Source of the DNA: Gracilariopsis chorda | Lineage: Eukaryota > Rhodophyta > Florideophyceae > Gracilariales > Gracilariaceae | Assembly (NCBI GenBank): GCA_003194525.1 | Contig: NBIV01000208.1 | Span: forward strand, 85,967-149,966 | Length of the DNA: 64,000 nt | Reading direction: 5' to 3' | Part shown: positions 7,628-64,000 of the stretch, in pieces | How positions within the stretch are numbered: position 1 is the first letter of the stretch | Layout of the letters: every line of letters begins with the position of its first letter | The notes under the pieces: generated by a model | The model's database searches: none | Seen by the model: only the letters and a program-made list of their open reading frames with translations | What the model was told of the DNA's origin: nothing | Program-made: the position numbers and the translations under genes

Positions 7628-7630
7628 CTA

Positions 7631-8638: not shown

Positions 8639-8684
8639 CTTCTCCTCGTAGTGTTCCGGTACGATTTGACGTCTCAAAGCACTT

Positions 8685-8993
8685 TGTTGGTCGGATACGA
8701 TACGCGGTCGAAGTGTTTCTGAGTAGCGCGATAGGCGAAAAGAACAGGCAAAAAACTTCTCAGAGGTCTTTCTGAGTTCTGCCCACTTTCTCCAGAGTTC
8801 TTCCTCCGAAGACAGGCTTATTTATTCTCTAGTTCTACTACGCGCCGCCTTCCACTAGAAGGCAACTACGACTCCGTAGGTTGCGTGTGCACTGCATGGA
8901 CTACCACGCAATTTACAATGCTTCAGTTTGAATTTTGGTGCTTCTTTTGGAAACAAATGTTTCCGCTTTGGGGAATTGCCACAATAGTTAACA
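8685..8993 (-). repeat. 5' LTR of element 1
   Basis: This is the same length as the 3' LTR and about 93% identical by eye count. It is followed by the target duplication GTGAC. The bases just inside it (minus strand AGTGCTTTGAGACG) do not begin with TGG, so no standard tRNA primer-binding site is evident. AT-rich TTATTTATT near 8818-8827 could hold a TATA or polyadenylation signal. Confidence 0.92.
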
Positions 8994-35568: not shown

Positions 35569-36393
35569 TGTGGTGCAATGCCCCAAAGGGGAAAAACACC
35601 GAAAGACGTTCGGGATCTTCCTCTCACGAGGTGAACCCAGTTGGGTAGAGCCCTCCCAGAGGTGTCACGGCGAAGCCGGTTTGTAAGACCAGGGACACCT
35701 GTCGCGACTCGCGCAGGGAGGTGAAGGCGAAGAATCGGTATCCGCGTGAGCGGGGTGTGATCCTCAGTAGAGGTATGTTTCCAAGTAAGTGGGGGCGTGT
35801 GAGCGGATGCGCACACGAGGGCCGCGGATAGCAGGAGGTGCTACCCTAAAAAGGGGAAAAAGGAAGGGCGAAGAGGAGAAAAAGAGGGCGAAGTGAGTCG
35901 CGAGAGCGACGGGGACGAACGGCGATGCCGGTAACAATATCCCTATACAGGGCGAAAAACCAATGCAATTGGAACAATTATACTCCCAGTGATGGGTCCC
36001 TTTAGATGTGCAAGGGGGTTAGATGTCCCGTGGTTTACGGCGTTTCCCTTCAAGGAGGAGTAGAGTACGCGCGCAAGCGGCAACAACTGGAGCCAATTCC
36101 CCAGGTTGGGGTCCCTTGTTTGGGAAGGTTTACTGGTGCGACGGCAGTGCGCCGTCGCACTAAGTACTAGCTTCCCAGAAATGGGTGTGAAAATAATAAA
36201 TAATATTAACTAAAATACTCCACATTTCGTGGCAACATCCACTACTGTGGCCAACCGCCAATTGACCCAAAACCGTGTCCCACGTGTCCATACCCACCAT
36301 AGTGGGGCGTAATTCATATACACACTACACAACCGATAATATCGGGAAAGCGTTCAAGTACCCAGAATCCCTGCCGGAGGGCGTTGCACTTCA
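35569..36393 (-). repeat. Solo LTR of the element-2 family inside the Harbinger element (TSD GAAAT)
   Basis: The 825-bp LTR starts TGTGGTGCAATG and ends GCACTTCA. It has exact GAAAT duplications at 35564-35568 and 36394-36398. It is nearly the same sequence as 54426-55253. It contains more than twenty short inverted repeats, most of the form CCNN-loop-NNGG, and one strong 10-bp hairpin at 36136-36160. An AT-rich segment AATAATAAATAATATTAAC near 36190-36210 could hold a TATA or polyadenylation site. It inserted 150 bp after the Myb-like gene, so it postdates the Harbinger element. Confidence 0.93.
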
Positions 36394-40761: not shown

Positions 40762-42057
40762 TCAGCATGTTCTTCTTCGTACAAAGCCCTGTCTTTGAAG
40801 ATGATCCGCAAGTTCATCTCTCAAATCGGAAACTTCTCTACCACGGTTTCTTGCACGCATGTTATCTCTCTCATTGTGCAGCCCATCTTGAAAATTCACA
40901 ACAGGACTGCCATAAACCTGATTGTCTTCATGCGCAGCAATGAATTCGTATGTATTATCGTCAGAAGTATCAATGAGAAAGTTGTGTGACTTACAGGCGA
41001 CAAGAATGATTAGAGTTGTGTGGTGCAAAGAATAGCGTATAGCAGACCAGAAGACTCCAAAGCGACATACTAGAATCCCGAACGCTTGTTCTACGCACGG
41101 CCGAGTAACAGAATGATAAGCGTTATATGTGTCTTCTCTCTGTGTTAAATGTCGACACGGAAAGGGCGTCAAAACTCGGGCTTTGTTACTATACGCGTCA
41201 TCCGCAACGACGGCTGCCCAAGAAGGTAATTCATCTCCATGTAGTAAGTCGTACAGTTTTGTATTACTAAAGGCAGTGGCGTCATGCGTTCCACCAGAAT
41301 GACGTGCAGAAACGAAGGAAAACTTATAGTCCGCTTGTACGGCTGCCTGCACACAAAGAGCAAAGAATTTCTTTCGATTGTAGTACTTCATGGGATCTGG
41401 AGCTTCTCTCAGAGAAGGGCACCTAATAGCAATGGCTATTCCGTCCAGTGCCGATATAGCACCATGTAGTGGACTGTTTCTTAGGCTTCGAAACATATTT
41501 GCCTGGTTCATACACTCTTCCTCTGTGCACGGAAATCTGATCTTTGGGAGTGTCTGATCAAGAACGATTAAGGTTTCCGTGAATGCATGGTAAACTGTTG
41601 AGGAGCCAAACCCGTATGGCCACGATATATCTAAGTAACTTGCTCCTGCTAGACGTCGTAATGTAAGAAATAACATAACAGGTAGAGTAAGAGAAGCTGC
41701 AACTCTAGAACAATTTTTCTGCTTTCGTTGGACAAAACTTTGCGTAGTTGAGAGAAGAAGGCTGTATTGAGATTTTGTAACGCGATACATTCTGGTAAAA
41801 ACAATGTCAGAAAGGGACTCTATGTGCGCCTGTGTGTTGAACGGAGTTCGGGGGAGCACGCAACAGAGTGCACGGTTATCTTGTTCCACCATTTGTGCGC
41901 ATATTGCACTGCAAATGATATGCATAACACATCTCGCTAAAAAGCGCCTTCGTTTGCTTCTTTTGCTCGACTGGATGGTTCTATCGTGAAGGAGTTGAAG
42001 GAAATGGATGGTGCGCGATGAAAGATTGATTTCCACCATGTTGTTGCCAAGTTGCAT
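40762..42057 (-). CDS. PIF/Harbinger DDE transposase
   Basis: An intact 431-codon frame. Residues 100-165 carry the helix-turn-helix-like region ending FGSSTVYHAFTETL. The DDE_Tnp_4 core has Asp205 (ALDGIAIAI), a KKFFALCVQAAVQADYKFSFV strand, GGTHDATAF, Asp287 (VADDAYSNKARVLTPF) and Glu323 (RPCVEQAFGILVCRFGVF). All three catalytic residues are present and spacing is normal for the family. It would cut and paste DNA at the 21-bp ends and 3-bp TAA/TTA targets. The start lies about 120 bp inside the right terminal repeat. It is convergent with the Myb-like gene. Confidence 0.93.
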   Translation of the reverse strand: MQLGNNMVEINLSSRTIHFLQLLHDRTIQSSKRSKRRRFLARCVMHIICSAICAQMVEQDNRALCCVLPRTPFNTQAHIESLSDIVFTRMYRVTKSQYSLLLSTTQSFVQRKQKNCSRVAASLTLPVMLFLTLRRLAGASYLDISWPYGFGSSTVYHAFTETLIVLDQTLPKIRFPCTEEECMNQANMFRSLRNSPLHGAISALDGIAIAIRCPSLREAPDPMKYYNRKKFFALCVQAAVQADYKFSFVSARHSGGTHDATAFSNTKLYDLLHGDELPSWAAVVADDAYSNKARVLTPFPCRHLTQREDTYNAYHSVTRPCVEQAFGILVCRFGVFWSAIRYSLHHTTLIILVACKSHNFLIDTSDDNTYEFIAAHEDNQVYGSPVVNFQDGLHNERDNMRARNRGREVSDLRDELADHLQRQGFVRRRTC

Positions 42058-42175
42058 GCATACTCTTCGCGATGGGATGGCTTTGTCATCTTAGACTTTT
42101 CATTTGTTTTTCGTAGTGTACGAAACGGGACCAAAATCGAAAATGTTTTAATTCAGAGTTAACCGTTCACGGATT

Positions 42176-42196
42176 AAGAAAGTCATAGAACGGCCC
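42176..42196 (-). repeat. Right terminal inverted repeat of the Harbinger element
   Basis: This is the perfect partner of 33846-33866 and is followed by TAA at 42197-42199. The transposase start codon is about 120 bp inside this end, so the promoter must lie within or next to the repeat. Confidence 0.95.
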
Positions 42197-42199
42197 TAA

Positions 42200-42539
42200 A
42201 ACTAGCGCCAGACTCCACTAATACCTACCCTCTCAGGTGCACGTGGAATCCAAATCTTACTGGTCCTGAGCGAGTGCCCCTTCAAATAGCAAAATAGAAT
42301 AGATAGAATAGATACATAGCGTTTATATAACCAAATAGTTTTGGCTTTCTATCACCCGTTGCCCGACCTGCTCCCTGCATCGCATGCTCTACCCCACGCC
42401 CTACGAAAAAAACGCTCTGCATCACGTGCACCACCTCATCTACGTGCCCCATAATATTACGCTCCCCGATATCCCACTCCGCCACCACCCTCCCTTCTCT
42501 GTTTCCAAGCATCCCGTTCTCCATTCTCCTTCCCCCGCG
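42200..42539. other. Right flank of the Harbinger element
   Basis: No gene before 42540. Short AGAATAGATAGAATAGATA repeats lie at about 42294-42315. Upstream in-frame codons from 42384 exist, but the zinc-finger start at 42540 is preferred. Confidence 0.35.
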
Positions 42540-43583
42540 ATGATACTCTGTTGCCATCCCCATTGCACCTTCTATGGCCGCACCGCGTTCTCTCTCCAGA
42601 GTCACCAACGCAGGTGCCCTCATCGACTCACCCACGACAAACGCCCTTCCTCCTCCGCCAACGCTCCCGTCCAGTTCCCTCCAAGGACCAAGCGACGAAA
42701 ATTCGTTCCAAACCTCTCCACCATTCCTCCTCCCACTCCCTCACACTGCCCCTCCGACAACGTCCCCCTCGCCGAAGATGAACCCTATCACATCCAACAG
42801 GCCTCCCTTTCCCTCCAAACACAAGACGCACACCACATGGCAAGTCACGCCCTCTGTTCAGTCTCCTCCTCAAACCCACCTCCCCATACCTCATCCCAAT
42901 CCCCCTCCCCTCTCCTCAACAACCCCCATCTCGAGCAACTCGTTTTCTGCATCTCCTCCATCGCTTCCTCCTTCAGCACACGCAAAGCCGACGAATTCAT
43001 CTCCCTTCTCAACCACTCGGACTTCTCCAAGTCAGCCTTCCAAAAATCCATCTCCTCCGCAAAGCAGTGCCTCGCACTCCAGTAACACCTCCTCAAGGAA
43101 TGCATCAACTCCACCGGCTTCCTCCCTCTCACACTCACCGACGAGCACAACTCCTTCTCCGCACCCCTCTTCCAAAAACGCGCCACAGACTTCCTGAAGC
43201 AACAACTCGCTCTCGCACACTTCAACAACACCTTCTTCCAACCCGTCTCCCAATCTTCCCCTTCCTCCTCTTCCACCCCCGCCTTCGCCCATCCTATGGC
43301 CGCAGCCTTTGGAAACAAAGTCGTTCCTGCCTTCAAACAAGCCATCATGCAGTGCCACATCAATTACATCGTCTGGCACACCCCCGAAACAACCGATAAG
43401 GAATCTTTCGTCGGTCTCGTCCAGTTATACTCTGATAAGTCCGCCACCTCACTCAAGAGCTCCTCCATCAACTCATATCCCCTTCACATCAACCTCCCGC
43501 ACGCATTGATCCTTCCTACCCACTTCACGAATCGACTCCCATCTCTCCCCCTCAATCTCAACGCCAATCAAGTACTTCAATAG
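42540..43583 (+). pseudogene. Single zinc-finger protein (one in-frame TAA)
   Basis: Start ATG 42540. Residues 4-30 (CCHPHCTFYGRTAFSLQSHQRRC) form a C2H2/C2HC finger. A Pro/Ser-rich linker follows, and then a helical region (SSFSTRKADEFISLLNHSDFSKS). A TAA at 43083-43085 interrupts, but the same frame runs on 165 codons to TAG 43581-43583 with LLKECINSTGFLPL and MAAAFGNKVVPAFKQAIMQC. CAA to TAA would explain the stop. The family is not recognised; a transposon-encoded DNA-binding protein or a host regulator are both possible. It is convergent with the gene at 43728-44600. Confidence 0.6.
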
Positions 43584-43727
43584 TTCATTACTTACTCCTC
43601 GCGACGACGGTGTGTACGACCTCATCTCAGACGCAATCTCAAACTGACATCGAGGTACAATCTCCTTTCCTCCCACAACAAATACACTCCCCTCTTTTCC
43701 CTTCCCCAATACTTCGCATCGATTCGT

Positions 43728-44600
43728 CTAGTTCCTTTCCACACCCTCCAAAGTAAAACAAAGCTCCGATACCTCCACCTTCGCATAGTACAACAACCTA
43801 TCATATACTACCCTGGCAAACCCATAAAAACCCTCTTGCACATCAAACACACACTTCCTACGCCCTCGCAATTCCTTTTCATCTTCAGATCCCTTTCTCT
43901 CCCCTCGTCTCACCTTCATCCCTTCCCGTAAGCTATCTATCAGCATATTCTTCTTGCTCATCTCTTCTCTCATCCTCTTCAGCTCCTCTTGCGTCAGCTT
44001 TAGCGACATCTTTAGGCTACAGTGGTCCCCATTGATCTGCCCGAGTTCTGCCTTCAACATATTGACCCTCTCAACTAACGAAGATCGACACATCACACCG
44101 ATTTCTTCACTCCCTGCATCTCCCAAAATATTGACAGGCAGCCGTCGCTCCTCAGCAAGCTCACTTGGCGACCGATGAACACTTCGTGTCCTCTCTCGCA
44201 TTCCTTCCGGAGCCCGCGGCGTTCTGCTTCCTTTATCACTTTCCAAGTCTTGAGCCATTTGCACCTTTCGCGCCCGTACCGGGGTGCTCGTACGTTCTCC
44301 GCTTTTCGATGCTTCCTGTATTCCATCCGTCGCTCTGACCACTTCTTCCACTTCTCGCGTTTCCTTTAAATCAGAGCGGCGTCCCACTCCTTCCTTTATT
44401 ATCTCTCTCGTCAATCTCCCCTTCACAATGTGATCCTCTTCGTCCCAATCACTCTCTACCAAAGGGACATTTACCTCTCCTCCATATTGATTTCCCCTTG
44501 GGGCTCCACCTCTCTTCAGCGCAACTGCCTCTTCCATTTGTTTCCTTTCCGTCATTTCTTCATCTTTATTTCGGTCTTCGACCCGCGCATTTGCTTTCAA
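43728..44600 (-). CDS. Charged coiled-coil protein
   Basis: An intact frame of 290 codons, although the ATG chosen may not be the true start. Residues 1-150 are highly charged and disordered. Residues about 180-235 form a coiled coil (SSLVERVNMLKAELGQINGD, LKLTQEELKRMREEMSKKNM). The last 45 residues (FDVQEGFYGFARVVYDRLLYYAKVEVSELCF) look globular. No family is recognised. It is separated from the zinc-finger gene by 145 bp and oriented towards it. Confidence 0.5.
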   Translation of the reverse strand: MKANARVEDRNKDEEMTERKQMEEAVALKRGGAPRGNQYGGEVNVPLVESDWDEEDHIVKGRLTREIIKEGVGRRSDLKETREVEEVVRATDGIQEASKSGERTSTPVRARKVQMAQDLESDKGSRTPRAPEGMRERTRSVHRSPSELAEERRLPVNILGDAGSEEIGVMCRSSLVERVNMLKAELGQINGDHCSLKMSLKLTQEELKRMREEMSKKNMLIDSLREGMKVRRGERKGSEDEKELRGRRKCVFDVQEGFYGFARVVYDRLLYYAKVEVSELCFTLEGVERN

Positions 44601-44649
44601 CCCTCCCTAATATGGTACCTCTTCTCTTCTCCTAGCAATCCGCACTTTC

Positions 44650-44967
44650 TTACCCTCCTCCCCACCACCAGACCCAGCCATAGATCGCTGTCCCAGAACC
44701 GAATCTCTCCCGCGTGCTACAGGCATGGGCATCAGCCTTCAAATTCTCACTCGTCGTGCGCTCGGATCCGACGTTCTTTGCCCCACCTCTTCCCCCTCTC
44801 TTCGAAGCACTTTCTCCTGACCTCCTCCCTGATAATCCGCTCCTGGGAACACATGATTTCGCTTTCGTTCCACCCGCGGTTCGCTCCTCAATAGCCTTTC
44901 GCCGCGTCTTAGGCGCACTCGCCGCACCACCCCTTGCCGGGCCTCGCTTCTTTCCCTTCGGCGCCAT
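44650..44967 (-). CDS. Small basic Lys/Arg/Gly-rich protein
   Basis: The ATG at 44967 (MAPKGKKRGPARGGAASAPK) gives about 105 residues. It is rich in Lys, Arg, Gly and Ser, as in histone-tail-like or nucleolar proteins. The C-terminus (YGWVWWWGGG) is unusual and the stop falls within a GGGTAAGA donor-like site, so it may be the first exon of the 44600 gene. A clean splice that keeps the frame was not found. Confidence 0.4.
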   Translation of the reverse strand: MAPKGKKRGPARGGAASAPKTRRKAIEERTAGGTKAKSCVPRSGLSGRRSGESASKRGGRGGAKNVGSERTTSENLKADAHACSTRERFGSGTAIYGWVWWWGGG

Positions 44968-45264
44968 TCTTGGAGTCAAGCCTCTTGCGCAAGTGGCTAG
45001 TGACGCTCTGGGATGGCGCACGCCGTGTGTTGTCCTGGAAAATCTCGCCACCCAATGCGCACAAAAATCTTTGTTTTTTGTGAAATCTTGAGAATACAAT
45101 CCTCCGTGGTATCGAAAATGGACGTTTCTGTATCACATCTATATCGCTTTTTATCTTATATCCTTACTAAAAAGTGATGTTCTCCTAAGTTAGGACTACA
45201 CATCCGTTCAAATAATAAACGTCGCCCCTTAGCCAAGCTGTTGACAAAGGTTTATAACAACAAA

Positions 45265-45935
45265 CTAATCAATGAATATCGTTCCATCTTCCACATTCAA
45301 ATGGGTTTGCCAGTCACAAACATCACCGTATCTGGCGAAGAGTTCCTCCCCTTGCTCTATGTCGGCTCTCACCTCCATCTTAATAAGTTTGTAGTCCGTT
45401 ATTCCCCCTGGTGTTCGTCCCACTCCCGGTGTCCATTTCATTCGCACATTAGCCTCCCTTTTTTCACGAGGCCATCCACCATGGCATCTAACTGTTTATC
45501 CCCTCCCACGTACTTTGGATCGTCGATATACCCCGCAATACAAAAAGAGGCAGGAACCACCCATAAAATAGGGTTTGCTTGTTTTTCATGCCAGTTCGTC
45601 AGCTGTTTTCGATGCAGAAGTGATTGGAACTGATGACCGTACACTTCTATCTCCACCGCATTCTTCCGGAAGCGATCCTTCTTCACACCCATGACTCCCT
45701 CCCCGTAGGTCTTGTGCACTTCTTTCCGTTTCGAAAGGTCATGATAAACCCACGTCCCGTAGAAATAGCACACTACCTCGCCTGCAGCAATTCGACGAGT
45801 TGCAAACACTCCAACACCAGCCTTTTCGTGACAAATAGTAGACTTGGCCACTTGCAACCCATATTGCACAGCCTTCATTGCCAATAGAGACTCATTTTCT
45901 CCAGAATCATTCTTCCCTGCAGCTCCCTCGGCCAT
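45265..45935 (-). pseudogene. SET-domain protein (lysine methyltransferase fold), frameshifted
   Basis: The start MAEGAAGKND at 45935 is 31 bp after the DNA methyltransferase stop. Residues 38-60 (EKAGVGVFATRRIAAGEVVCYFYG) are the SET-N motif. The frame 45447-45265 supplies the rest: an ANVRMKW-type segment and DIEQGEELFARYGD, the SET-C end. CIAGYIDDPKYVGG fits the asparagine-containing middle region, although the usual NHxC is not seen. The two halves are out of frame by -1 at an AAAAAAGGG run (about 45448-45460). The family transfers methyl groups from SAM to lysines, mostly histones. Confidence 0.75.
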
Positions 45936-45966
45936 CCATCTATAGCTTTCTTCCTTCCCATCTTCC

Positions 45967-47949
45967 CTAGAATATCACTTTGCCACAAAGTGGAGAGAAC
46001 GTCGACAACGTGTGGGGAGGAATTTGGTACGGTGGAAATCCGTCGATGGCCCTCCATAACACGGTGTGTCTGCGTCTTCCCATTGGGAATGCAGAGGAAA
46101 CACAATGGGCCATCTTTCGAAGCTCCTGGCTCTTCTCAATATCCGTGTGTCCTTCCCGTATTATGGAAGCGAAGCGAACAATAGCGGCATGCCTGGCGTG
46201 TTCAAAGCATGCTTTGTCCGGTTCACACCCCACAAACTTCCGATGCTTGGGCAGTTCCATGCACGCCATCGCTGTCGAGAACGATGCGGCAAACATGTCG
46301 ACCACGAGGTCTCCTGGCGGACTGAACCTGCAAATCACCTCTTTCAACAGTGCCCTACAATTCTGTTCCGGTCGCACCCTCTTTCTCGTATACTTCCCAT
46401 CCGGGGTTTTCACAGACCACATGAGCATCTCACTATTTGACCTCAGTGGCACCTGATCCATGATTGCATGATACGCTGGGTACCGTGAACCAACATAGTT
46501 GAAGTTCTCATAGTTGACCATCCGGTGCTGTTGTGCATAAGGAACTCCAGAACGAACAGCATGTACAGCGTATTCTGTCGTCTGGTACAACCGGCAACTT
46601 CTTCTCCCATCTTTACCCGTCGTAGTACCTAAAGACCGTATGAAATGGAGGGGCTGTTCGTCGACGACAAAGGAGTAACGCATACATGTAGGTAACTTTC
46701 CGTAGCACATCCCGCCACAACGGTACCTGATCCCATGAGCAGAACTGCTTAATATGTTCACCAGGACGTAGAAGCTTTGACGACCTCCTCGCTGACTTGT
46801 CATGCCCTTCTCGGTCAGAATATTGTGTTCGCTGTTCTCCAAACGACGCTCAGAACGAGTCCCATATGGCGGATCGGAAAGCAGGAGCTGTACCCTTCCT
46901 TCAATAGATACCTCGTTTTCGCCAGACTTGTTGTCGTCAACTTCGATGAGATTTTCGAGCTTGCAGTTGTGGAGACGGAAGTTGCGGGATATCTCCTTCT
47001 CAGAATAACTGTAAGCTATCACATCATCCAAAGTCGTAGGGTACGGTGGTGCATGAATCCCCTTGCCTTCGACATCATACGATAAGTTCTGCGACAAAGC
47101 TGTTGTCTGCAGTCCTTCAGTGGCCTTTGGTGCAGTACCACGTTCTGCAGTACCCCGTTCCGCATCCTCTACCATCTCTATCTCTTTCATTTCTTCCAAC
47201 TCACTCTGATCACCACCTTCCACACGCTCAGCACGTTCGTTCCCACGACCAGCCGTACCAGTTTCTACCGGCTCTATAATGATGTCAACGTCTTCTGCGA
47301 GCTCTGGTTTCACAGCTTGATGTGATTTGACATTGCTTCCATGCAATGCAATGAGCTTCAGAGGCTTTATGGCCTCTTGAACCGTAGTGACAAGAGATTC
47401 ACTAATGTTCTCAAACTGCAGAGAGAAAAGTCTCGTTCTCGTGATGATGAACCTTTTGAGGGCATCCCATTTGCTGGGAGCAGAGATGTCGAACGGTTTC
47501 TTTTGTACCACCACATTAGAAAGATCACCAAGGTATTATTTGGCACAAAGGCGAAGCGCTGTATCCACTGGGTCTGGCAGATTCCATGCCCATTTGGTAA
47601 CGTTTCCTTCTACGGTGGTGACGTTCTTCTCCTCCACAAACTGTTTGGAACAATCTTTGTGTTGGAAGCCCATGGGGCGTTGTGCGATATCGGTGAAGAC
47701 TACACTGATATAGTCGAGTCCAATGTAAGGCAAGATCATAACCTCAACGTTGGGAAACCCGAGGAATTGGGCGAAACAATCCCAAGCCCTGGTCACCAGC
47801 TGCACACCATACCCGACTCTCTGACTCTGGGTCTTGTCCGACAAACTCACTTTCGAGAACTTCTTAGCTGCCATGCCCCTTTTCCTCTTCCTACCACTTC
47901 CTTTCTTATCCACGGCAATCTGTTGCACCATAGACAACCCAACGACCAT
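45967..47949 (-). pseudogene. Beta-class DNA methyltransferase (N4-cytosine or N6-adenine), one in-frame TAA
   Basis: A 661-codon frame with one TAA at 47536-47538. In the downstream 515 codons (start 47514) the catalytic motif IV LLLSDPPYGT is at residues 211-219. Motif I (GDLVVDMFAASFSTAMA, 401-416) lies C-terminal to it, followed by RKFVGCEPDKACFEHA. Order IV then I is that of the bacterial-type N4C/N6A family (PF01555-like). The glycine-rich FxGxG is changed to FAASF, which may weaken SAM binding. The N-terminal 145 codons have a basic segment and an unassigned domain. Adjacent minus-strand genes encode a SET protein (downstream) and an unknown small protein (upstream). Confidence 0.8.
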
Positions 47950-53225: not shown

Positions 53226-54425
53226 GCTTGTGCAGTATATATGTCCCGTTGACTTTTCGGCACTGGAGCGGTGCAAAACCGCAGCCACGTCTCGCACAAG
53301 CCAGCTACTGCTGATTGGCTGGCACAGCAAACATGTTTGAAGCACCAGCCACTCAGGAGCAAGGAGGCAATCAACACAGAGCAGCATCCAGTGCCCGGCA
53401 CGCTTGACTGCTACTGCTGCAGATTGTTTGCAGTGAGGTGTTGCGCCAAATGGGCGTTTTTATATGCGTACGGACCGTCCAAAGCGCTTTTGTGGCGCAA
53501 CGACTCCCATCAGTCAACGATATGCCCCTCGTTGGCAAGAAAATGCTTAAAAATTGAGAGACAAGTCTAAGCGGCCTTTGGCCGCGGGCGGCGCTGCGTG
53601 CCGCTGAATAAGGGTGACTTTGGGGCTGCTGCATGCCTCTTATGTATGGTGTTGCTCGCAAACGGCTTGAAAACGAATACGAGCCGCGGCGTCAAAAGTG
53701 GCTATGGAATAGACTTGGAAGTGAGCGTCGGCGCGTTGGTGAGTTGGTCGAATTGCATTACGCTGTGTAGATTACAGTCAACTGTAACTGGATTGTGCTT
53801 CGATAAAAACTGTAGTGCCAGCCAATGTGCAGTGCGGTAGCTGGTACTCCTGTAGTTCCAGCTACTGAGCAGCAGCAGCAGTAAAAGTACAGCAGTAGCC
53901 AGTGAGCTTTGCTGATGCTCCCGCTGCTGCTGTTGGTGATTCTTTTGGCGGGGATCCTTTGCGCTAGAATAGAAATTTCATGCTTTGAGGGGGGAATGGT
54001 AGGAGATGTATTCGCGCAAAGCCTCCTGTCAATCAATAATACCCCACATCTCAATACCGCGTCGTACTTGAATAATTATCTGAACGACAAAATTGTGCCT
54101 ACGGATCCATCCTTAGCTTCATGCAGCAGAGAGGTTTCTGCATACTGTGCCAAAGCGGAAGATTGGTTGACCGATGTGAAGAGGTTGTAAAGTTGCACCA
54201 TTAATTTGGAAAAATTATGCCTGAGACTTGGAGATGTAATTGCACTTCATTGCAATTGGCTGGCACTACGGTCATTTACTGTAGTGCCAGCCACTCAGCA
54301 GTACATATAGTCAACATGCAGCAGCAGCAAATTAGCTCTGAGCTTTGCTGCTGCTCTCACTGCTGCTGCTGCTGCCTGATTTTATATTTGACGGGAAGAA
54401 ATTGCGCAAAATTAGACATTACATG
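53226..54425. repeat. Dispersed composite repeat, copy 2
   Basis: Related to 13180-14150. It begins with one unit of the CAG/CAC-rich type (about 53271-53545). The GGCCTTTGGCCGC block follows at 53573, then AAAAGTGGCTATGGAATAGA (53694-53713), CTGTGTAGATTACAGTCAA, and two more units (53830-54060 and 54270-54425). The last is cut off by the LTR at 54426. Stem pairs TGGCTGGCACTA..TAGTGCCAGCCA mark each unit. Plus-strand frames at 53909-54190 and 53598-53840 are judged non-genic. Confidence 0.6.
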
Positions 54426-55253
54426 GCTGGTGCAATGCCCCAAAGGGGAAAAACACCAAAAGACGTCCGGGATCTTCCTCTCACGAGGTGAACCCAGTTG
54501 GGTAGAGCCCTCCCAGAGGTGTCACGGTCAAAGCCGGTTTGTAAGACCAGGGACACCTGTCGCGACTCGCGCAGGGAGGTGAAGGCGAAGAATCGGTATC
54601 CGCGTGAGCGGGGTGTGATCCTCAGTAGAGGTATGCTTCCACGTAAGTGGGGGTGTGTGAGCAGATGCGCACACGAGAGCCGCGGATAGCGGGAGGTGCT
54701 ACCCTAAAAAGGGGAAAAAGGAAGGGCGAAGAGGAGGAAGAGAGGGCGAAGTGAGTCGCGAGAGCGACGAACAAATACGGCGATGCCGGTAACAATAACC
54801 CTATACAGGGCGAAACACCAAGACACTTGGAACAATTAGTACTCCCAATGATGGGTCTCCTTCAGATGTGCAAGGGGGGTGAACTTCCGTACACTACGGT
54901 GCTTCCCTTCCAAGGAGGAGTTGAGAACACGCGGAGGCGGTAAAGCTCAGAGCCAATTCCCCAGGTTGGGGTCCCTTGTTGGGGAAGGTTTACTGGTGCA
55001 ACGGCAGTGCGCCGTCGCACTAAGTACTAGCTTCCCAGAAATGGGTGTGAAAATAATAAATAATATTAGCTAAAATACTCCACATTTCGTGGCAACATCC
55101 ACTACTGTGGCCAACCGCCAATTGACCCAAAACCGTGTCCCACGTGTCCATATCCACCATAGTGGGGCGTAGTTCGTATACACACTACACAACCGATAAT
55201 ATCGGGAAAGCGTTCAAGTACCCAGAATCCCTCCCTGAGGGCGTTGCACTTCA
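54426..55253 (-). repeat. 3' LTR of element 2
   Basis: Aligns end to end with the solo LTR at 35569-36393. The outer end begins GCTGGTGCAATG here against TGTGGTGCAATG there, so the terminal TG is mutated or the true edge is a few bases off. The inner end ..GCACTTCA abuts the polypurine tract. It contains the paired variant CCAAG-aca-CTTGG (54818-54830), where the other copy has CCAAT-gca-ATTGG. On the plus strand this LTR lies directly upstream of the antisense ORF, so a bidirectional promoter is possible. Confidence 0.9.
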
Positions 55254-55269
55254 TATCCCCCCCCTTAAG
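55254..55269 (-). other. Polypurine tract of element 2
   Basis: On the minus strand CTTAAGGGGGGGGATA stands immediately before the LTR start TGAAGTGC. In LTR retrotransposons this RNase H-resistant tract primes plus-strand DNA synthesis. Its position fixes the LTR as the 3' LTR and the orientation as minus. Confidence 0.85.
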
Positions 55270-55310
55270 ACGGGAAAACAACCGCGGACGCGGAGGATTC
55301 CCAGACGAAA

Positions 55311-57098
55311 ATGGGTGATAAAAGCGCGTGCTTTGTCTCCGGTTCTCCGGTAAATCCCTCTGCACCAGAGTCATCAAGCACACAAACGACAACAACAGCC
55401 ACCCTCCAAAAGGGAAAAATGAACGACGACAACAATATCAACAACCACAGCCAACCTCTGAGACTTCTCGGGCGATACAACACCGGTTTCCGGTCAGTTC
55501 CCCTGCCTCAGGGCGATCGAAATCCGGTACAACCGGGGAATATGGCTGCTGCTGCCGACCATCCCTTCGCATTACCACCTTCGGTGGTGTCCTCCGGAAC
55601 CACTCCGGTGTCCAACTGGCCAACCTACAACACCCTGGTGGGGCTCAACCCGATGAATCGGAACCACGCGTCGCGCCTGCGCCTTGCCCCGTGGTTTCAC
55701 CCGGTCGCTGTCCTCAATGAGGGATTGGTCACCGCTTATGCGGATGGTTCAGACACCCTTCCGGGGGATCTGCCCAGAGCAGTCACCACATCGTGGGATT
55801 GGCGTCACCGGATTGCGATTCCGCGTCACAACCTCCGAAGAAACTCGGGCGAGACCGTCACTGCGGCACAGACCGCGTTGACGCGCATGGCGTATCAACG
55901 GCAGAGCCGGGCTCCATTCGATGTACTGGTCCCACCGGAGTTTGGCTTTGACGTCAGCTACTTCCGCACTCGCGGGGAGATTGGGTACGGCGAGAACCTG
56001 TTCCGCCTCGAGACCCTCGCTTGGAGGAATTTCCCCGCAGCGCGGCAAGAAGCCCTTTGCTGGGAGCGACCGATTATTCGGGCGGAGTTCAGGTACCTTC
56101 CCCGGCAATACCGGTCCAACTTTCTCCAAAACTTCATCCGCTACGAGCGGCGTTGGCGATCCCGATTCGGGTATTTTATCCCGTATCAGAACGTGGAGAT
56201 AGAGCGGATTGCGCCGCCTCACCGACTAGGTCGGTATGTAGCACTCCCCGAGTGGTGGCGCTTCCATGAAGCCTGCCGGGGGTGCTACATAGAACTCCCG
56301 CCGGTACTTACGTACCTCGGTTCGCTGCTCACGCAGGATCCCCGGTCGGGGTTGTGGTCCGTAGTGGTTACGGAGTGGGCGGCCCGCAGTGCGGCTTATA
56401 TCCTCAACGAGGCGTACGACCAGTATCGTCTCTGGTTCCTTCAACCGCGTGTGCAGGCAGCGATCCGAAACCTGGATCTTCGCATCCCCCTTGGGGGCCA
56501 GGCCAACAATGAAAAGGTCCTCCAATTACTTGGGTACATCGACAGCGTTAGCTGGAGTGAGGTCCCGCTGGAGCAAAGAGGTCGTCTGGATGGCGGTAGC
56601 GGTAACACCGGTGGTCCGGGACTCGGTAGAAACACCGCCCTTGCGGGGGATTTTATCTACTTCGACCCCTGGGAGTTCCGGGAAATTTCCTCCGAGGAGG
56701 CGCGCGAGCTTCGCGATACGCCCCGGCATGTGCCGGAAGACCACCCGGTGGGGTACGTCGATTCCGACGACTACTACCGCGCATACGGCGGGGATGACCC
56801 AATGGTCGATAACGAACCGGAAGAACCCGGGGAGATGGACGTAGAGGAAACCGGCGCTAGCGCGGAAGCTTTCCCAGAGGGGGCATCTCCGGCCGAGCCG
56901 GCTGCTGACCCTTCGGCGGCAAGTGCCGGACCTTCTATCCCCAGCGGGGTGACGGCGAATGAAAACGAAATCATCGCACGTTTCCTCCAGGGTGCCGGTC
57001 TTAGCGCTGCCGAGGTATCGGGGGATGTCACCACCATGGCGGACGCGTTGGCCTACCGCCTTGCTGGGGGTTACGCCCCGGACGATGGGGGTGAGTGA
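55311..57098 (+). CDS. Intact antisense ORF of element 2 (595 codons, unknown family)
   Basis: Starts 57 bp inside the 3' LTR with a good context (AAAATGG) and runs to TGA 57096-57098 without interruption, opposite in direction to gag-pol. Residues 1-50 are Ser/Thr/Asn-rich. Residues 100-390 look globular, with many Trp, Tyr and Arg (TSWDWRHRIAIPRHNLRR, EFRYLPRQYRSNFLQNFIRYERR). 420-595 are acidic and Pro/Ala-rich, with FLQGAGLSAAEVSGDVTTMA near the end. No known family is recognised. Antisense ORFs between pol and 3' LTR are known in some plant Gypsy lineages. It is the only long undamaged frame of this element. AATAAA follows at 57186. Confidence 0.75.
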   Translation: MGDKSACFVSGSPVNPSAPESSSTQTTTTATLQKGKMNDDNNINNHSQPLRLLGRYNTGFRSVPLPQGDRNPVQPGNMAAAADHPFALPPSVVSSGTTPVSNWPTYNTLVGLNPMNRNHASRLRLAPWFHPVAVLNEGLVTAYADGSDTLPGDLPRAVTTSWDWRHRIAIPRHNLRRNSGETVTAAQTALTRMAYQRQSRAPFDVLVPPEFGFDVSYFRTRGEIGYGENLFRLETLAWRNFPAARQEALCWERPIIRAEFRYLPRQYRSNFLQNFIRYERRWRSRFGYFIPYQNVEIERIAPPHRLGRYVALPEWWRFHEACRGCYIELPPVLTYLGSLLTQDPRSGLWSVVVTEWAARSAAYILNEAYDQYRLWFLQPRVQAAIRNLDLRIPLGGQANNEKVLQLLGYIDSVSWSEVPLEQRGRLDGGSGNTGGPGLGRNTALAGDFIYFDPWEFREISSEEARELRDTPRHVPEDHPVGYVDSDDYYRAYGGDDPMVDNEPEEPGEMDVEETGASAEAFPEGASPAEPAADPSAASAGPSIPSGVTANENEIIARFLQGAGLSAAEVSGDVTTMADALAYRLAGGYAPDDGGE

Positions 57099-57185
57099 AC
57101 CCTCTAGTCTAGTTTCCTGGTTCTTCTTTCCCTGGCTATGCCAGTTAGTGTAGCGTAGTATTGTGGGGAGCTAGCTGCTCCCTTG

Positions 57186-57191
57186 AATAAA
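57186..57191 (+). terminator. Candidate polyadenylation signal for the antisense ORF
   Basis: AATAAA lies 88 bases after the antisense stop codon, in a 190-bp gap before the end of pol on the other strand. It would give the antisense transcript its own 3' end. The assignment rests on position and sequence only. Confidence 0.45.
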
Positions 57192-57289
57192 CTTTCCCGT
57201 TTAGAACGGTGCTTCTCGGTTGAGTTCCCCGTCTTCGACGGACTTTGCCTTGTTATCCTTTCCTTTCGCTCTCCGCTCGCGCGGCAACG

Positions 57290-59737
57290 TTACCCAACTT
57301 GGGCATTAACCAGCGTGGCTGGGGTTGCAGTTCCCGTTTGACGGTGGTATCGCAGGACCTGCGACCGTGGGAGGTGTTCGATTGGCTCCCACGTATCCCC
57401 ACTGGGGTCATACCCGTACCAGCGGACGCAGTATTGTAGAATACCATCCTGGTCCCAGGTGTGTCCGACAAGTCGGTCTACTACGAACTCTCGTTCGTAG
57501 ACCTGCCGGCCGTGCCGGGTGGTGGTTGTAATCCCTGGCGAGGGTTGCCCGCGGTGCGGTATAATGTCCCTTAGCAGGGTGTTCGGCGATAACTCCGACG
57601 TTGCCGTGCGCTGTCCTAGTGGCCGCTGCTCATGCGGGAAAATATCCCTCAAGAGGGTGTGTGGTGTCACGGTTTTCACCGGCAAGTCATTCCCCATTGG
57701 GGTGTCGTTGTTCCCGTCTTCACGGTAGGCCGGGCGAACCGCCAGTCGGCGGGGGACTTGGGCTCCGCCTTCGCGGTTGAGCTCACGAACCGCGAGTTTG
57801 CGGGAAGATGACTGCTCCTGCGGGATCGGCATTTCCACAATCCCCTGGGGGGTCCCGTGCGACACGGTGATTGGGTGGCAAACCGCCTCCCTGGCAGGCG
57901 CACGAGCGCTTTGCACCATACGTTCCGGCGATGCCGTGGTGTCCCCGGCTACTGACGGGTTGCCTGGGGTTAACTCCGGTACACCGGTATTTTGGTCAAA
58001 ATTCTCCTCTGGGGGGTGCCGGGCAGGTGCCGATGACACCCTTTTCAGGGGAATTGCCGCTAAGCGCAGTGCACCATCTCCGTGAGGAGGAGCAGCGTCC
58101 GGTACGACCGGTTTCGAGCGTGCGATGGCGCGCGTTATTCCCGAGTTCCTCGGTTCTTCGCCGCAGCGATGCGGGGGTTGGCGCAAATTATTCCCCGTAG
58201 CGGGGGCTTTGATTCCGTCAACGACGGGAGGCGTTTCCGGTGCTTGCGAGCCAGGGCTTAAAGCTTCGACTGCAGCTTGGCCGCCTTTTTCCCCAAGAGG
58301 GGTGTGGGTATTCCCCTGTGAGGCCGGCGTATCTGGGCGCCCCTTCTCCGCAGGGCGCGGGTCTGATCGACCTGATTGAACCGCTTCCGCGGGGACTTCC
58401 GCCAACGGCGGCTTCGAGGCATCGGGCGATTGCCTTTCTGCTGCTGCGGTATTGGATTGAGGCTTCTCGTTTTCCCGTGACAAACGGTGTATTTGCCGCT
58501 TTTGCGGGGCCTGCGCGTCTGGTTCCTGTTTCACAGCACTGCCCGGGAACGGGGGATTAGTGTCGCGTGACATACTCCATGCTCCACGGTCAGTGTTCCG
58601 TATGTTACGGTGTGTTTCCCGTTGCGACGGCGATATCGTTCCTCGAAAACGAGTGTTCCCCTCCCCCTCCTTAGTCGGAGCGGCGGGATAAGGGATAAAA
58701 TTCCCCGCCTGGCGGGTATAGATGCGCGCCAGTGGGGCAGACGTGGTAGGGGCGGGCGCTGAGGGGCCCGAATTACCCGGCTGAGCCGGTGAGTCCGACA
58801 GAGTCGGTAGGTCTGAGAGTCCCCGGCTGGGGTTTGGTAGTACCGTAGGTCTAGTACTCCCAGATGGTTCCGGTGTTGCAGAGTCCGTAGAAACGGGGTT
58901 GTCTGGATCCAGGACTACCTCTGACGAGGGAGGAGGGGCAAGGACAACACGATCACGGGAAATCCGTTCGTGCGTGTCGCCCATCTCTACCACGACAGTG
59001 TCGGTGTTAACAGAGATGACCTTGAAGGGTCCATCCGCCACAGGCGAGAGTTTGTGACGCTTCTCCCGTTCTGGGTTGTAGTATTCCTTCCTGATGAAGA
59101 CGTAGTTATTTGCCCGAATCGGGGGGGTCTTTCCTCGCAAGCGAGCGTCAAAATTCCGCTTGTAAGCGGCTTGGGCCCGTGCCATAGACTTCCACGCAGC
59201 GGGGACCAGCTTGGAAAGCCATTGCTTCCATTGCTGCCGGTAGATACCCACAGATGGGAAATTGTCCAAGGTAGCTTGGGGTTCCAGCGCCACAGGCGGG
59301 GGTGTTCTAGATAGAACTAACTCGAATGGCGAAACTCCGGTAGTCCGGTGTACCTGCGTATTGTACGCGTAGGTTACCGCATCAGCGTAGAGATCCCAAT
59401 TCGTTGGGTGGTCAGCGACGTAGGAACGTAACGCCGCGAGTAACGTCCGGTTAAACAGTTCAACTTGCCCATTACACTGGGGGTGGTATGTAGTCGTGAA
59501 CAAGTTCTTGACATCCAGGATGCGACAAACATCCTGGAAGAACTTGCTCACGAACTGCTTCCCGTTGTCAGAGAGCACCTCTACAGGGGGACCGTAGACA
59601 AAAATCCAGTGCGTCACCAGAGCCTGGGCCACCGTGAGAGCGGTTATCCTCCGAAGAGGGACAGTCCGTACCAGCTTAGAAAAGCGGTCGGTAATGACAA
59701 GTAGAAACTTGTTTCCACGTTTCGTGGTGAGTAAACG
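57290..59737 (-). pseudogene. Integrase core, Pro/Ser-rich tail and chromodomain of element 2
   Basis: The frame is open from about 59737 to 57290 (ATG 59632). The integrase core has EVLSDNGKQFVSKF (second Asp) and HPQCNGQVELFNRTLL (Glu), both intact. PLSPVADGPFKVISV is the C-terminal barrel. A tail of about 500 residues, rich in Pro, Ser and Thr and likely disordered, follows. The chromodomain is at the very end (REFVVDRLVGHTWDQDG, CVRWYGYDPSGDTWEPIEHL). A tail of this length is unusual for a chromoviral integrase. The frame is separated from the first part of integrase by one frameshift near 59738. Confidence 0.88.
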
Positions 59738-60398
59738 GTCCGAGAATATCGATCGCGATAAACTCGAGCGGCGCCCTTGCGGGGAATAGTTTCATCTTCT
59801 TCGCATTTTTGCGGAGTTTGACGCGATTCTTCGCGCATTCGCTACAAAACCGCACAGTTGCGTAGCAATCCACCGCCATTGCGGGCCAATAGAAATCCCT
59901 TCGCAGGGTTAGGTAGAGTTTCCTCCCACCTGGGTGACCTCCAATGGGGGCGTAGTGTGATAGATGTAACACCCACGATTGCAGGGAATGTGGTACCACA
60001 ATCTGTGGGCGGGCTTCGACCTTTCTTACGAGGTAGCCTTTGTCGTTTACCCCGAAAGGGAGATCTTCACCACCGTTGATACGGGCACGAATTCTCGTAC
60101 AGAATGGGTCGCCGAATTGTTCTCGGATCATTTCTTCCGGTGATACCGGTACAAAGTTTCCCGGTAACGGGTTCTCAGATTTATCTCGCGATGCGAGTAG
60201 TTCGTCAAAATCAGCATCCTCGTCCCAGGTTTCTGGCCTAGCCTCGACGGCATGTTCCGGATCATCCGGGTCTATGGCCATGAAACATGGGACTTCATCA
60301 TCCTCCGTTGGGAGTGCTTCCCCACTTGTGGGTAACCGCGATAAAAGCGTCGGCCTGGGTGTTCTGCGCACCCTTTTTATAAATGACTTGAAAGTCAT
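59676..60398 (-). pseudogene. Integrase N-terminal domain of element 2
   Basis: 240 codons. After an acidic linker (DDPEHAVEARPETWDEDADF) comes the HHCC zinc-binding domain (HLSHYAPIGGHPGGRKL and CSECAKNR), then the core start FIAIDILGPF with the first catalytic Asp. The final codons are out of frame: the next frame carries on with the integrase core. The start of this frame overlaps the RNase H frame by about 100 bp (a frame change near 60340). Confidence 0.85.
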
Positions 60399-60933
60399 AT
60401 TCCGCGAGGCGGAGTCTCCAGCGCATGAGGCGTCCCGACGGGTCGGAGATATTCATCAACCACCTCAATGAGGAATGATCCGTGTACACGGTGAAGTGAA
60501 TTCCCATAAGGTAGGGGCGCAGAGTGGACATCGCCCATACGACGGCGAGGGACTCTTTCTCCGATACGGAGTAGTTCCGCTCATGAACATTGAGTGAACG
60601 TGACCAATAACCAATTGGATGTCGTTCCCCTTCGGGGGTGGTTTGAAAAAGAGCACACCCGACTTGGTAGTCGCTCGAGTCCGTATCTACGGAGTATGGC
60701 AACCCAAGTTTTGGGAGATGTAGGATTGGTGCTGATGTGACAGCCTCCTTTAAGGAGTTAAAAGCTTCCGATTGCTCGGGCGTAAATGTTCCCAGTTTTG
60801 GGGGGTTCCCCTTTCGCAACAACGCGTTCAGGGCGCTGCAGTATCCGAAAAGTTCGGGATAAACCGTCGATAGACGTTGACCAGCCCAGAAAGGAGCGCA
60901 GTTCCGTTTGAGTACGGGGTTCTTTCGCCTCAA
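60298..60933 (-). pseudogene. RNase H region of element 2
   Basis: 211 codons. The RT connection (FTPEQSEAFNSLKEAV) leads to RNase H with PYSVDTDSSDYQVGCALFQ, HERNYSVSEKESLAVVWAM, HFTVYTDHSSLRWLM and a QADAF end. The typical DSS/E/D residues are visible. The upstream junction to RT (60934-61045) contains stops and a frame change. Confidence 0.85.
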
Positions 60934-61045
60934 CGAGGGATTTGACTCGAGCTTTCTAGATCGCTAACCGTCCAGGACGGATAATGTGACCCAGATACTT
61001 CTCAGTATCTGTGAAAAACTCGCATTTCCTCAACTTGAGGGTAAT

Positions 61046-61958
61046 TCACGCACCGCGGAGTACGGTCAGCACGTCTCGGACGTGAGTGAGATGGTCGTCC
61101 AACGAGTTGGAGAAGATGATAATATCGTCAAGGTAGACCAGACAACTCCGCCACTTAAAGCGGTTGAGTAGAATATCTACTGCACGCTGAAAGGTGGCGG
61201 GGGCGTTGGTTAACCCAAATGGCATCCGCTTGAAGCGGTACGTTCCTGCATGGCAGGTGAATGCGGTTTTGTCGCGATCCTCCTGTCTGACAGGTACTTT
61301 GCCAATATCCCCAATTGGCATCAAGGGCCGTGAACACGGTGGCGTCTCCAAGGGAGTCAATGCACTCATCCATAAGAGGGATGGGGTACGTGTCCCTAAC
61401 AGTCACGGCATTGAGCCGGCGGTAGTCGACACAGAACCTCCAGGTTCCGTCGGCCTTCAAAGCCAGTACAACTGGGGATGCCCAGGGTGATTTGAGCGGG
61501 CTCAATCACCCCTGCGCGGAGCATCTTGTCCACTTGGGATTGCTCCTCTTCCCGAGCTTTCGGACCTGCCTGTAAGGGGGTTGTGCAACCGGTCGCGCAC
61601 CGGGGATTAAATCGATCCGGTGTTCCGTTGCATTAATCTCGCCAAGCGAGCCATCCCACATTGTGGTGAATTCCCGTAACATAGTACGGAGTTTGTCGCG
61701 GTGCGACTCTGGCACGTGGCTGAAGTTCAGCGCTTCAAGTGCTTTTTCCGGATCAATCCGGTCGTTGCTCGATGGAGCATTGTCCTGTGGAACAGGTGTG
61801 GTTCGCAATTCCAATTCCGAGTTACTCGGTATGTTCGACGCTGAAGTAGCGGTTTCCTCCCCCTCCTTAGACTTGACGTCTTCGGACGGCGAGGCGAACT
61901 CCTCAGAAGAGGTGGTAACTCCGAGTACATCGGCGGCTGTCATCGTTGTTGGCAGCAT
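61046..61958 (-). pseudogene. Reverse transcriptase of element 2
   Basis: From 61958 the frame holds the pre-RT linker and TEHRIDLIPGARPVAQPPYR, then two small compensating shifts near 61500-61560. 61505-61310 carries SPWASPVVLALKADGTWRFC and VDYRRLNAVTVRDTYPIPLM. After a further shift, 61369-61046 carries KMPFGLTNAPATFQ-like sequence and the catalytic YLDDIIIFS, intact here, unlike in element 1. At least three indels make it non-functional. Confidence 0.88.
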
Positions 61959-62322
61959 TCCATAGGATGGGGGTTACACTCCAATTACTTGGTGTTTGAC
62001 CAGATACTGGGGGTGTTTGCCAAGGTTGGCAACCAATATCCGGAAAGGGACATCCGGGAAATGGAGACAATTCCATTAGCCAGCGCCAGCTGGGATTTCT
62101 CGTACAACGAGGCGAGGGGTTGGTATAACCCGAAGACCGTGTTGACGGGAATTTACCTGCACCCAGACTTGGGACTCAGCCGGTATAGAAACCGAGGCAG
62201 CGACGCAAAGCTTGGTGGACTCGCGGGACGCGGGCGGTGGTTCCTGCGCAGCAGGGAGCGGAACTTGTTTCCGAGAGGACCGCTTTAGCGGGCGGCGAAC
62301 AATCGGAACCGACGATCCGTCG

Positions 62323-62650
62323 TCAAGTTCTACACGCCTGAGGCGGGCCTGATTGCGTCGACAAATCTGTCGCAGTAATCACATCCCAGTATGACTGGTG
62401 CTGCAATGAACGGCAAAAGATGAAGTCCAACTTTACCACAGAGGTACCACAAGTCTCACGACGAGGTCCACTGTGCCCACGTTTGTAACGGATTGTTGTT
62501 CTCATCCGAAATGTCGGGGACCGCGTCAGAGCGGATACGCGACCGCACAAGCGGGGTAACAATGATTCCACAACAAAGTTGGGGCTGCACCTGTATCCAG
62601 GACGGTGAGAAACCTCACCATAAACTGGGGGTCAAGGCCAAGGTCGGCAT
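62323..62650 (-). pseudogene. Aspartic protease remnant of element 2
   Basis: The minus-strand translation near 62600 contains FLTVLDTGAAPTLLWNH, the DTGA active-site loop of retropepsins. About 70 codons later, in another frame, comes PVILGCDYCDRF, the second conserved glycine motif. Frames change at least once. Bases 61959-62322 and 62651-62869 are degraded connecting sequence. Confidence 0.65.
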
Positions 62651-62869
62651 AGACCTTATAGTTGCGCTGGCCAAGACCAGGACTCTACCGGGAATCCGGG
62701 GATTTTTACTCCGTATCCACGGGGCGACGCAACACACCGAGGTGCGCAGAGTCCGCGTCAGCGGTGTCTTTCCTCGAGAGGATTTTCACCGGGGAGCGAG
62801 GCGAGGACGCCTCGGGCGCCAAAAGCCTCGTTCTTGAGGACGCCTCTCCCAAAGGGGAGACTCCCTCAG

Positions 62870-63970
62870 TTAGTTTTCCGCCGTCGGCGGTGGGTTGGTT
62901 TCCTCGACAACGAGTGCTTCATCCCGTTGACGGGGGTTTCTCCGCAAAAGCGGGGGTTGCAACGGATGGTTGCGTGATCTCCCGAATCGGGTGTATGAAG
63001 CTTGCCGCGCACGCGTGGTCTGTGGTAGGGCGTGGGAAAAGTCCGTTTTAGCACGGAGGTAGGAAGCCGTCGGGACGGAACGTTTCTCCTCTGGAGTGAG
63101 GGCCTCATAATTTGCCACCACCTTGGCCATATTCTTCAGTGAACAAATACACTGAGGAGAGGTATGGCCATGGGCATAGCACAGGTGGCAAATGAGAGCC
63201 AGCACCGCGACACGCGGATTATTATTCCGAGTATCGGGAGAAGCGAACCGCAGGGCGGGTGTCAGTTTATCCAGGCCGTTGATAACGGGATTGACCGTTT
63301 GAAAACGGGAGTCGTTGGGGTTGAACCCGACTGTTACCACCGTATAGAACGGGATCTTCTGTTCCCGTATCATGGGTCATCTCCGTCGTTGACGGCAACT
63401 CACTGGTGGGTATCGACACCCATCCCCCTGCGCTAAATGCACGGTATCAAATCCCTGTCCAGGGTTCCCATCCGCAGTGAGCGGGAGTGAGGAAGCTTCA
63501 CTTTCCAGCATCAACGCCTTGGCGGATTTAGACCGATTGTTCGGAGTTCTTGCACGAAGTGCATCCCCTTCCGCTCGAGCGTGTTGGACCAGCTCGAGGT
63601 AGGTGATCCTCCGCTTATCCTCCCGATAACGGGTAACTAAACCCCGGATTGCCGGGTCAAGACCATCGATGAACATGGTGCAGCGCTCCCCAGCGGGGTA
63701 TACATTACCACATCTGTGGAAAGCCTTGTTAAAGCGCACCGAGTAATCGGTCTCGGTCTCTCCAGCACGCTGGCGTGTATCTTGCAAAGCGAGGATAGCC
63801 TGCTGAATAGCGGGTGTTGGTGGCGTAGGAGCGCAGAAGATACTGCACAGCCTCCGGCCAGCAAGTAACTCCTCCCTCGGAGGCGCGAGAAGATCCTCTG
63901 ACAGAGGTGTATTGGTCCTCCGCCACTCCCCGTAAGAAATACGGTAAAGCCAAATAGGCTTGTCCCTCAT
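62870..63970 (-). pseudogene. Gag of element 2 (one in-frame TGA)
   Basis: A single frame with TGA at 63377-63379; it is open past 63970 towards the window edge. The capsid part has QQAILALQDTRQRAGETETDYSVRF-type sequence, matching Retrotrans_gag. After the TGA the nucleocapsid part contains CHLCYAHGHTSPQC, a perfect CX2CX4HX4C zinc knuckle, then LTPEEKRSVPTASYLRAK. The TGA falls between capsid and zinc knuckle, as one of the stops does in element 1. The coding DNA is also full of CC..GG mini-palindromes. Confidence 0.85.
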
Positions 63971-64000
63971 TCATACCGAGGATATCGGCCTCCGCTACAA

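Follow-up and report, generated by a model that had tools for sequence, protein, structure and literature searches.

Closely spaced CC-footed mini-hairpins run through coding and noncoding parts of a red-algal Ty3/gypsy chromovirus from Gracilariopsis chorda

Why should the long terminal repeats (LTRs) and the coding region of a retrotransposon be built from closely spaced mini-palindromes, most of which start with CC and end with GG? The question is raised by a 64,000-nucleotide (nt) stretch of Gracilariopsis chorda DNA (contig NBIV01000208.1, positions 85,967 to 149,966; hereafter the window), which forms the end of one contig (C208) of a genome examined here as 91.3 Mb in 1081 contigs. From 54424 to the contig end at 64000, the window holds a cut copy of a Ty3/gypsy chromovirus whose sense strand is the minus strand. 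A sequence-only reading of this DNA had noted the pattern, had ascribed it either to selection for pairing or to a mutational process that regenerates palindromes, and knew of no named element class like it. Judged by its domains, the element does belong to a named class, Ty3/gypsy with a chromodomain integrase. Comparison of its copies suggests that the hairpins themselves are under selection.

The motif was counted as CCNN-loop-NNGG stems with loops of 2–6 nt, and 2-kb bins across the window were compared with dinucleotide shuffles. The five bins from 54001 to 64000 hold 34, 43, 34, 36 and 42 CC-foot stems against 3.5, 6.6, 4.2, 2.8 and 4.0 in the shuffles (z 16.7 to 20.6), which bears out the excess proposed by the sequence-only reading. 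Stems that begin with GG number 1, 12, 4, 4 and 11 in the same bins against 3.3, 5.5, 4.5, 3.3 and 4.4. Among the remaining 27 bins, the three holding the LTRs at 17305 and 35569 reach z 5.2–7.9, and the other 24 range from –1.2 to 3.1. The individual counts given earlier were also close: about 20 inverted repeats in the LTR at 35569–36393 become 18 non-overlapping hairpins with loops of 2–5 nt, or 20 when loops up to 6 nt and overlaps are allowed, and about 13 hairpins in the last 600 bp become 12.

The excess also survives codon-preserving shuffles. CC-foot hairpins number 44 against 5.2 in gag, 101 against 17.1 and 107 against 17.9 in pol of the copies C19 and C23, 22 against 3.5 in part of pol of family C10, and 31 against 6.6 in an open reading frame (ORF) that runs antisense to pol; across the tested frames the excess is 3.5 to 8.5 times, and four of four other window ORFs tested lie at chance. 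When all 16 outermost dinucleotides were compared in the C19 copy, CC occurred 209 times against 16.7 (12.5-fold), CT 25 against 6.1, CG 39 against 14.9 and GG 21 against 15.9 (1.3-fold), with the others at 0.8–2.1 times expected. The hairpins occur throughout the LTR, gag, pol and antisense ORF, were also seen by eye in the short leader, and are evenly dense along the element parts (20 stretches scanned), amounting to 170–190 strict hairpins per copy, or about one every 50 nt. In the main group of noncoding LTR copies, each of 51 holds 14–21. By comparison, one short stretch from another, intact gypsy family of this genome has 1 hairpin in 1266 bases, and one short stretch of a copia family has 1 in 744 bases. 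The window also carries a second gypsy element (reverse transcriptase (RT), RNase H and integrase pieces at 4687–8821, minus strand), which is without hairpin enrichment and has relatives with long open frames elsewhere in the genome. Among contigs of other genomes, one distant locus (L082) was found, without the trait (8 hairpins in 8062 bases); two scans of viral contigs returned no relatives, and no Rfam family matched 54000–64000 at gathering scores.

The form of the hairpins is tight, with a CC/GG foot, mostly 4–5 Watson–Crick pairs and a 3–4 nt loop. Contiguous pairs were counted inward from the foot in five pieces, namely the C19 copy, the antisense ORF, part of pol C10 and two LTRs. 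Stems of 4 pairs with loops of 3 and 4 nt number 60 against 7.1 and 95 against 5.4, and stems of 5 pairs with loops of 2, 3 and 4 nt number 26 against 1.6, 68 against 1.5 and 13 against 1.2, respectively. Stems of 3 pairs with loops of 3–4 nt are up 2–3 times, stems of 4 pairs with loops of 6–8 nt about 2.5 times (13–14 against 5), and stems of 6 or more pairs total 10. The position just outside the foot avoids pairing (in the window copy, 24 of 188 hairpins pair there), and the CC-to-GG distance is variable, with enrichment from 7 to 12. Hairpin centres are spaced with a peak near 20 nt and weaker ones near 42 and 63; exact 10.5-nt helical phasing was not seen, skew power peaking at 20–25 nt. 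On the pol-sense strand, an A follows the foot in 117 of 242 hairpins and the mirror case occurs in 44, a bias that points to one strand. Local folding energy lies below that of codon shuffles on both strands, sense and antisense (z –8.7 and –11.1 in gag, –15.7 and –11.7 in pol, –6.5 and –6.8 in part of pol C10).

What keeps the array may be read from how widely changes are shared among the copies. We distinguished private changes (in one copy) from shared variants (in three or more copies) and rare ones (in at most 2). Private changes strike stems (66/9047), loops (27/3914) and other positions (202/28846) of the 51 LTR copies at equal rates, whereas shared variants fall on 3/178, 13/77 and 64/570 positions, respectively (P = 1.7e-5 for stems against other positions). 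Likewise, in 16 pol copies, private changes number 138/13133 in stems and 584/62617 outside (P = 0.22), and shared variants 28/942 and 214/4323 (P = 0.0076). Private changes are equal and inherited variants avoid stems; therefore, stems decay freely after insertion and are held while the elements are active. These tests took in hairpins present in half or more of the copies, so that the shared count leans somewhat towards conserved stems; three comparisons with hairpins defined in a single sequence are free of that bias and agree. The LTRs at 35569 and 54426 differ at 3/156 stem, 8/68 loop and 46/604 other positions, and pol C19 and C23 differ by 3.6% in the outer stem, 5.4% in the inner stem, 16% in loops and 10% outside. 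At fourfold-degenerate sites, 15/232 have changed in stems, 12/55 in loops and 116/674 outside (21/241, 9/52 and 113/668 in the reverse direction), a 1.9–2.6 times lower change in stems (test on 15/229, P = 3e-5), with stems showing the deficit whichever of the four bases is considered, for A and T on small numbers. The stems are thus conserved beyond the needs of the protein, in line with the selection for pairing suggested earlier. For rare stem changes in the 51 LTR copies, the pairing partner has stayed as it was in 84 of 92 cells, and 21 of 30 hairpins missing from a sister copy differ by 1–2 stem bases; with these unchanged partners and a private rate equal to that outside, correction of arms to each other in decaying copies was not seen. 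Taken together, the array looks to be kept by purifying selection during the active life of the elements, rather than by a repair or copying process.

Four pol copies from different families were compared; where protein identity is about 70%, most positions of the motif differ from family to family. Between pol of C19 and of C10 (70% protein and 66% DNA identity), with 35 and 22 hairpins, 7 coincide, against 0.8 expected from shifting and at most 4 in 171 shifts; 2 of these are identical, 3 differ only in the loop and 2 have arms changed in pairs. C19 and family C339 coincide at 4 sites, as do C10 and C339, and in each case 2 read as paired arm changes. Alignment of 62 distinct LTRs gave 23 hairpin sites, 22 of them held by three or more copies; 18 of the 22 are common to both main families, and at least 5 of the 18 have paired arm changes, such as CCCT..AGGG to CCTT..AAGG. 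Inner pairs changed on both sides between LTR families keep pairing in 5/5 cases from C to A and 3/4 from A to C, against 0/2 in slid controls in each direction, so that paired changes preserve pairing more often than the controls, on small numbers; one-sided changes number 5 and 10. Two-sided changes were absent between two more closely related LTR groups, A and D, the 2 copies of D being counted in A as well. Between pol copies about 90% identical, 86 of 100 hairpins are identical, 13 absent and 1 changed in pairs; read the other way, the 106 hairpins comprise 86 that are identical, 17 absent, 1 with a paired change and 2 in gaps. As judged from these alignments, paired change is rare at 10% divergence and clearer between LTR families about 20% apart. 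The earlier statement that copies differ in paired fashion therefore holds mainly between LTR families but does not describe the commonest fate of a hairpin. Both examples quoted for it are present in the sequence, but one, the change from CCAAT-gca-ATTGG to CCAAG-aca-CTTGG (54818), is a rare variant, found in 1 of 62 distinct LTRs, with CCAAT-gca-ATTGG in 41 of 62.

The layout of the window copy is that of a chromovirus read on the minus strand. Its 3' LTR (54424–55253, minus), recognized by BLAST to other LTR copies, holds 21 strict hairpins in 54426–55253, covering 31% of its length. Adjoining it is a likely polypurine tract, G-rich on the minus strand (55254–55268); the C19 copy is laid out alike. 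The pol region (57293–62918, minus), with an interrupted frame, encodes RT, RNase H, an integrase zinc finger, an integrase core and a chromodomain and carries 97 hairpins. A partial gag with 23 hairpins (62873–64000, minus), placed by comparison with the C19 copy, is cut by the contig end. Two further LTRs in the window stand alone, both on the minus strand: one of the same family at 35569–36393, with a 5-bp target-site duplication (GAAAT) and 18–20 hairpins, and an older one of a sister family at 17305–18100, about 71% identical to the former, with the duplication CGTAG and 9 hairpins.

The C19 copy has a 728-amino-acid (aa) gag frame that overlaps an 1875-aa pol frame with RT, RNase H, integrase and chromodomain. 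Its 1874-aa translation matches RVT_1 at 488–646, RNase H at 712–841, H2C2 at 975–1032, rve at 1049–1146 and, at the C-terminus, the chromodomain PF00385 at 1811–1852. Its LTRs are 99.75% identical over 807 bases, have TG..CA ends and are flanked on both sides by the 5-bp duplication CTTAG, indicating that the family moved recently. A TGG lies 3 nt past the 5' LTR (likely primer site), and a G-rich tract precedes the 3' LTR. No aspartic protease was matched in this copy by Pfam at E 0.1 or by one simple D[TS]G pattern. Gag contains one CCHC knuckle (C622, C625, H630 and C635), nearly invariant in an alignment of 30. Against solved structures its profile gave weak matches, the best (E 0.0093) to an unrelated helical protein and another, over the knuckle region, to human immunodeficiency virus (HIV) nucleocapsid at E 0.13. 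Among named eukaryotes, the closest protein relatives of pol come from Agarophyton chilense and Chondrus crispus, and those of gag from Agarophyton chilense.

The extra antisense ORF (609 aa, 55269–57098, plus strand; 31 hairpins) matches no Pfam family and resembles antisense ORFs of plant LTR elements. It is carried by the C23 and window copies; the C19 copy is without it, save for a 78-base match. Relatives of this ORF, with function not assigned, occur dozens of times in the genome, and one is annotated as a Gracilariopsis chorda hypothetical protein, BWQ96_03215, whose genome match is 100% over residues 1–491.

What might such an array do? It covers what genomic RNA would hold, namely LTR, gag, pol and the antisense-ORF stretch, and since the only long ORF of that last stretch runs opposite, translation is unlikely as the cause. 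We tentatively suggest, as a reading with somewhat less than even chances, that the selected mini-hairpins are many equivalent docking sites on the single-stranded element genome, probably read by Gag. The hairpins would act in that single-stranded genome, most likely the packaged genomic RNA. Their shape and foot would mark them for the reader, most likely the Gag of the element itself, which has one CCHC knuckle, and they would make the element genome selectively packaged and condensed, although the reader could be a host factor and pairing may be needed in complementary DNA (cDNA) too. A number of 170–190 strict hairpins per copy would fit a coat touching the RNA at many points. The limits on foot, size and loop and the neglect of G–U pairs favour recognition of a compact duplex over stability in its own right. 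In its general form, which we hold a shade more loosely, the proposal is that of a second code lying over coding and noncoding retrotransposon sequence: a near-regular lattice of mini-hairpins, read site by site by a dedicated protein, with a docking point every 20–50 nt, whose positions differ from one family to the next under a rule that persists.

Several observations weigh against the docking proposal. G–U pairs are not favoured, unlike in ordinary RNA structure. Near-hairpins with one inner mismatch on the sense strand number 14 for G–T and 13 for A–C (shuffle background 7.1 and 7.0), and shared stem variants in pol are G–T in 5 cases and A–C in 8; one-sided changes are G–T in 3 and A–C in 7 between C19 and C23, and 5 and 7 between C19 and L055. 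Plain RNA stability therefore does not explain the array. Modelled as RNA folds with 40 nt of context, the hairpins have a mean probability of 0.39–0.46 on the sense strand and 0.31–0.62 on the other, without a consistent strand difference; at only about 0.4 in context, either a stabilising partner would be needed or the model misses the hairpins. Moreover, the A-flank bias is missing from family C10 (9 vs 10) and appears in milder form in unpaired CC..GG controls (92 vs 56 of 318). The signal is weaker in family C339 (11 against 3.1 in part of pol, codon shuffles), and GG-foot stems slightly exceed codon shuffles in gag (7 against 3.6), pol C19 (15 against 10.4) and pol C23 (17 against 10.4); the corresponding counts are 3 against 2.4 in part of pol C10, 2 against 1.6 in part of pol C339 and 6 against 4.0 in the antisense ORF.

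The strict Watson–Crick pairing, with G–U not preferred over A–C on the sense strand, would also suit hairpins that are needed in DNA, either in the single-stranded cDNA of reverse transcription or, after integration, as protein-binding sites, and loops of 2–4 nt suit DNA hairpins. We regard this as the less likely course, since the flank bias is strand-specific in the main family and the CC-to-GG distance of 7 to 12 misfits a rigid dimeric site on double-stranded DNA; such a rigid site is not favoured. The even cover of the element, the spacing near 20 nt and the use of different sites under a similar rule by sister families would be expected, too, if the array protected the RNA against a host defence, for instance silencing guided by small RNAs, because no long stretch would be left open. 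For shielding, however, a CC foot would be unnecessary, stems could be of any length and G–U pairs would be allowed, and an intact gypsy family and a copia family of the genome, in the one stretch of each that was counted, are without the pattern, which makes it improbable.

The two remaining explanations dispense with function. Fold-back copying or template switching might make and repair palindromes without selection, and arms that match perfectly regardless of base, together with some paired changes, are what it would produce. We consider it very unlikely, because most rare changes stay uncorrected, private changes hit stems as often as other sites, and hairpins missing from a sister copy are mostly one or two stem bases off; in addition, stem sites evolve more slowly, whereas copying from arm to arm would not be expected to alter the rate. 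The palindrome-regenerating process raised by the sequence-only reading is rejected, as the force that maintains the array, on the private and shared changes. Finally, chance, base composition or codon usage (proline and glycine codons) can call only on the richness of the element in CC and GG and has next to no probability, being refuted by the dinucleotide and codon shuffles, the GG-foot control, the other ORFs at chance and the 51 noncoding LTR copies.

With Ty3/gypsy chromoviruses the element shares LTRs with 5-bp duplications, a gag with a CCHC knuckle, the RT–RNase H–integrase order in one pol frame and the chromodomain, and probably also a primer site and a polypurine tract; it differs in the hairpin array and, in some copies, the antisense ORF. 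Palindromic repeats and GC clusters of algal organelles are likewise numerous, short and GC-rich, but they are repeated sequences lying mostly between genes, whereas here arms and loops vary by site and the hairpins also lie inside open frames. Some RNA viruses have genome-scale ordered RNA structure, which extends across the whole RNA beyond codon needs as here; the seaweed array differs in its single hairpin form, its one foot orientation and its lack of preference for G–U over A–C. How LTR retroelements select and condense their own RNA is only partly understood, the known signals lying mainly near the ends. For Ty1 and Ty3 this is stated in one source (PMC4974528), which also reports nt 429–4979 of yeast Ty3 to be dispensable when proteins are supplied in trans; on that account, an array through gag and pol is not expected in Ty3. 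There is also a likeness to MS2-type single-stranded RNA viruses, in which, according to another source (PMC6281560), many short stem-loops with a shared recognition motif are dispersed through the genomic RNA. The seaweed element likewise has many motif-sharing stem-loops (here as a sequence motif only), under selection beyond coding. The MS2 motif lies in the loop and bulge, whereas in the seaweed element, whose genome belongs to a retroelement, it is the CC/GG foot and the size that stay constant. The portions of the open-access literature searched contained no description of an array of this kind, and an earlier one may exist elsewhere.

Other features of the window include a 464-aa ORF with C2H2 zinc fingers (1010–2404, plus strand), a 442-aa ORF with a DDE_Tnp_4 transposase domain (40762–42090, minus) and a 522-aa ORF with an N6/N4 DNA methylase domain (45967–47535, minus). 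The stretch at 42001–46000 has strong GC skew (–0.50, –0.33) and long overlapping frames and is probably repetitive and of low complexity.

An element with some 170–190 hairpins of the same shape running through its genes under selection offers a naturally occurring test, with ample statistics, of genome recognition based on structure. As the motif is short and exact, small synthetic hairpins can be used to look for the protein that reads it, and strong noncoding selection inside open frames would distort codon inference and inference from the ratio of nonsynonymous to synonymous substitution rates (dN/dS) for these elements.

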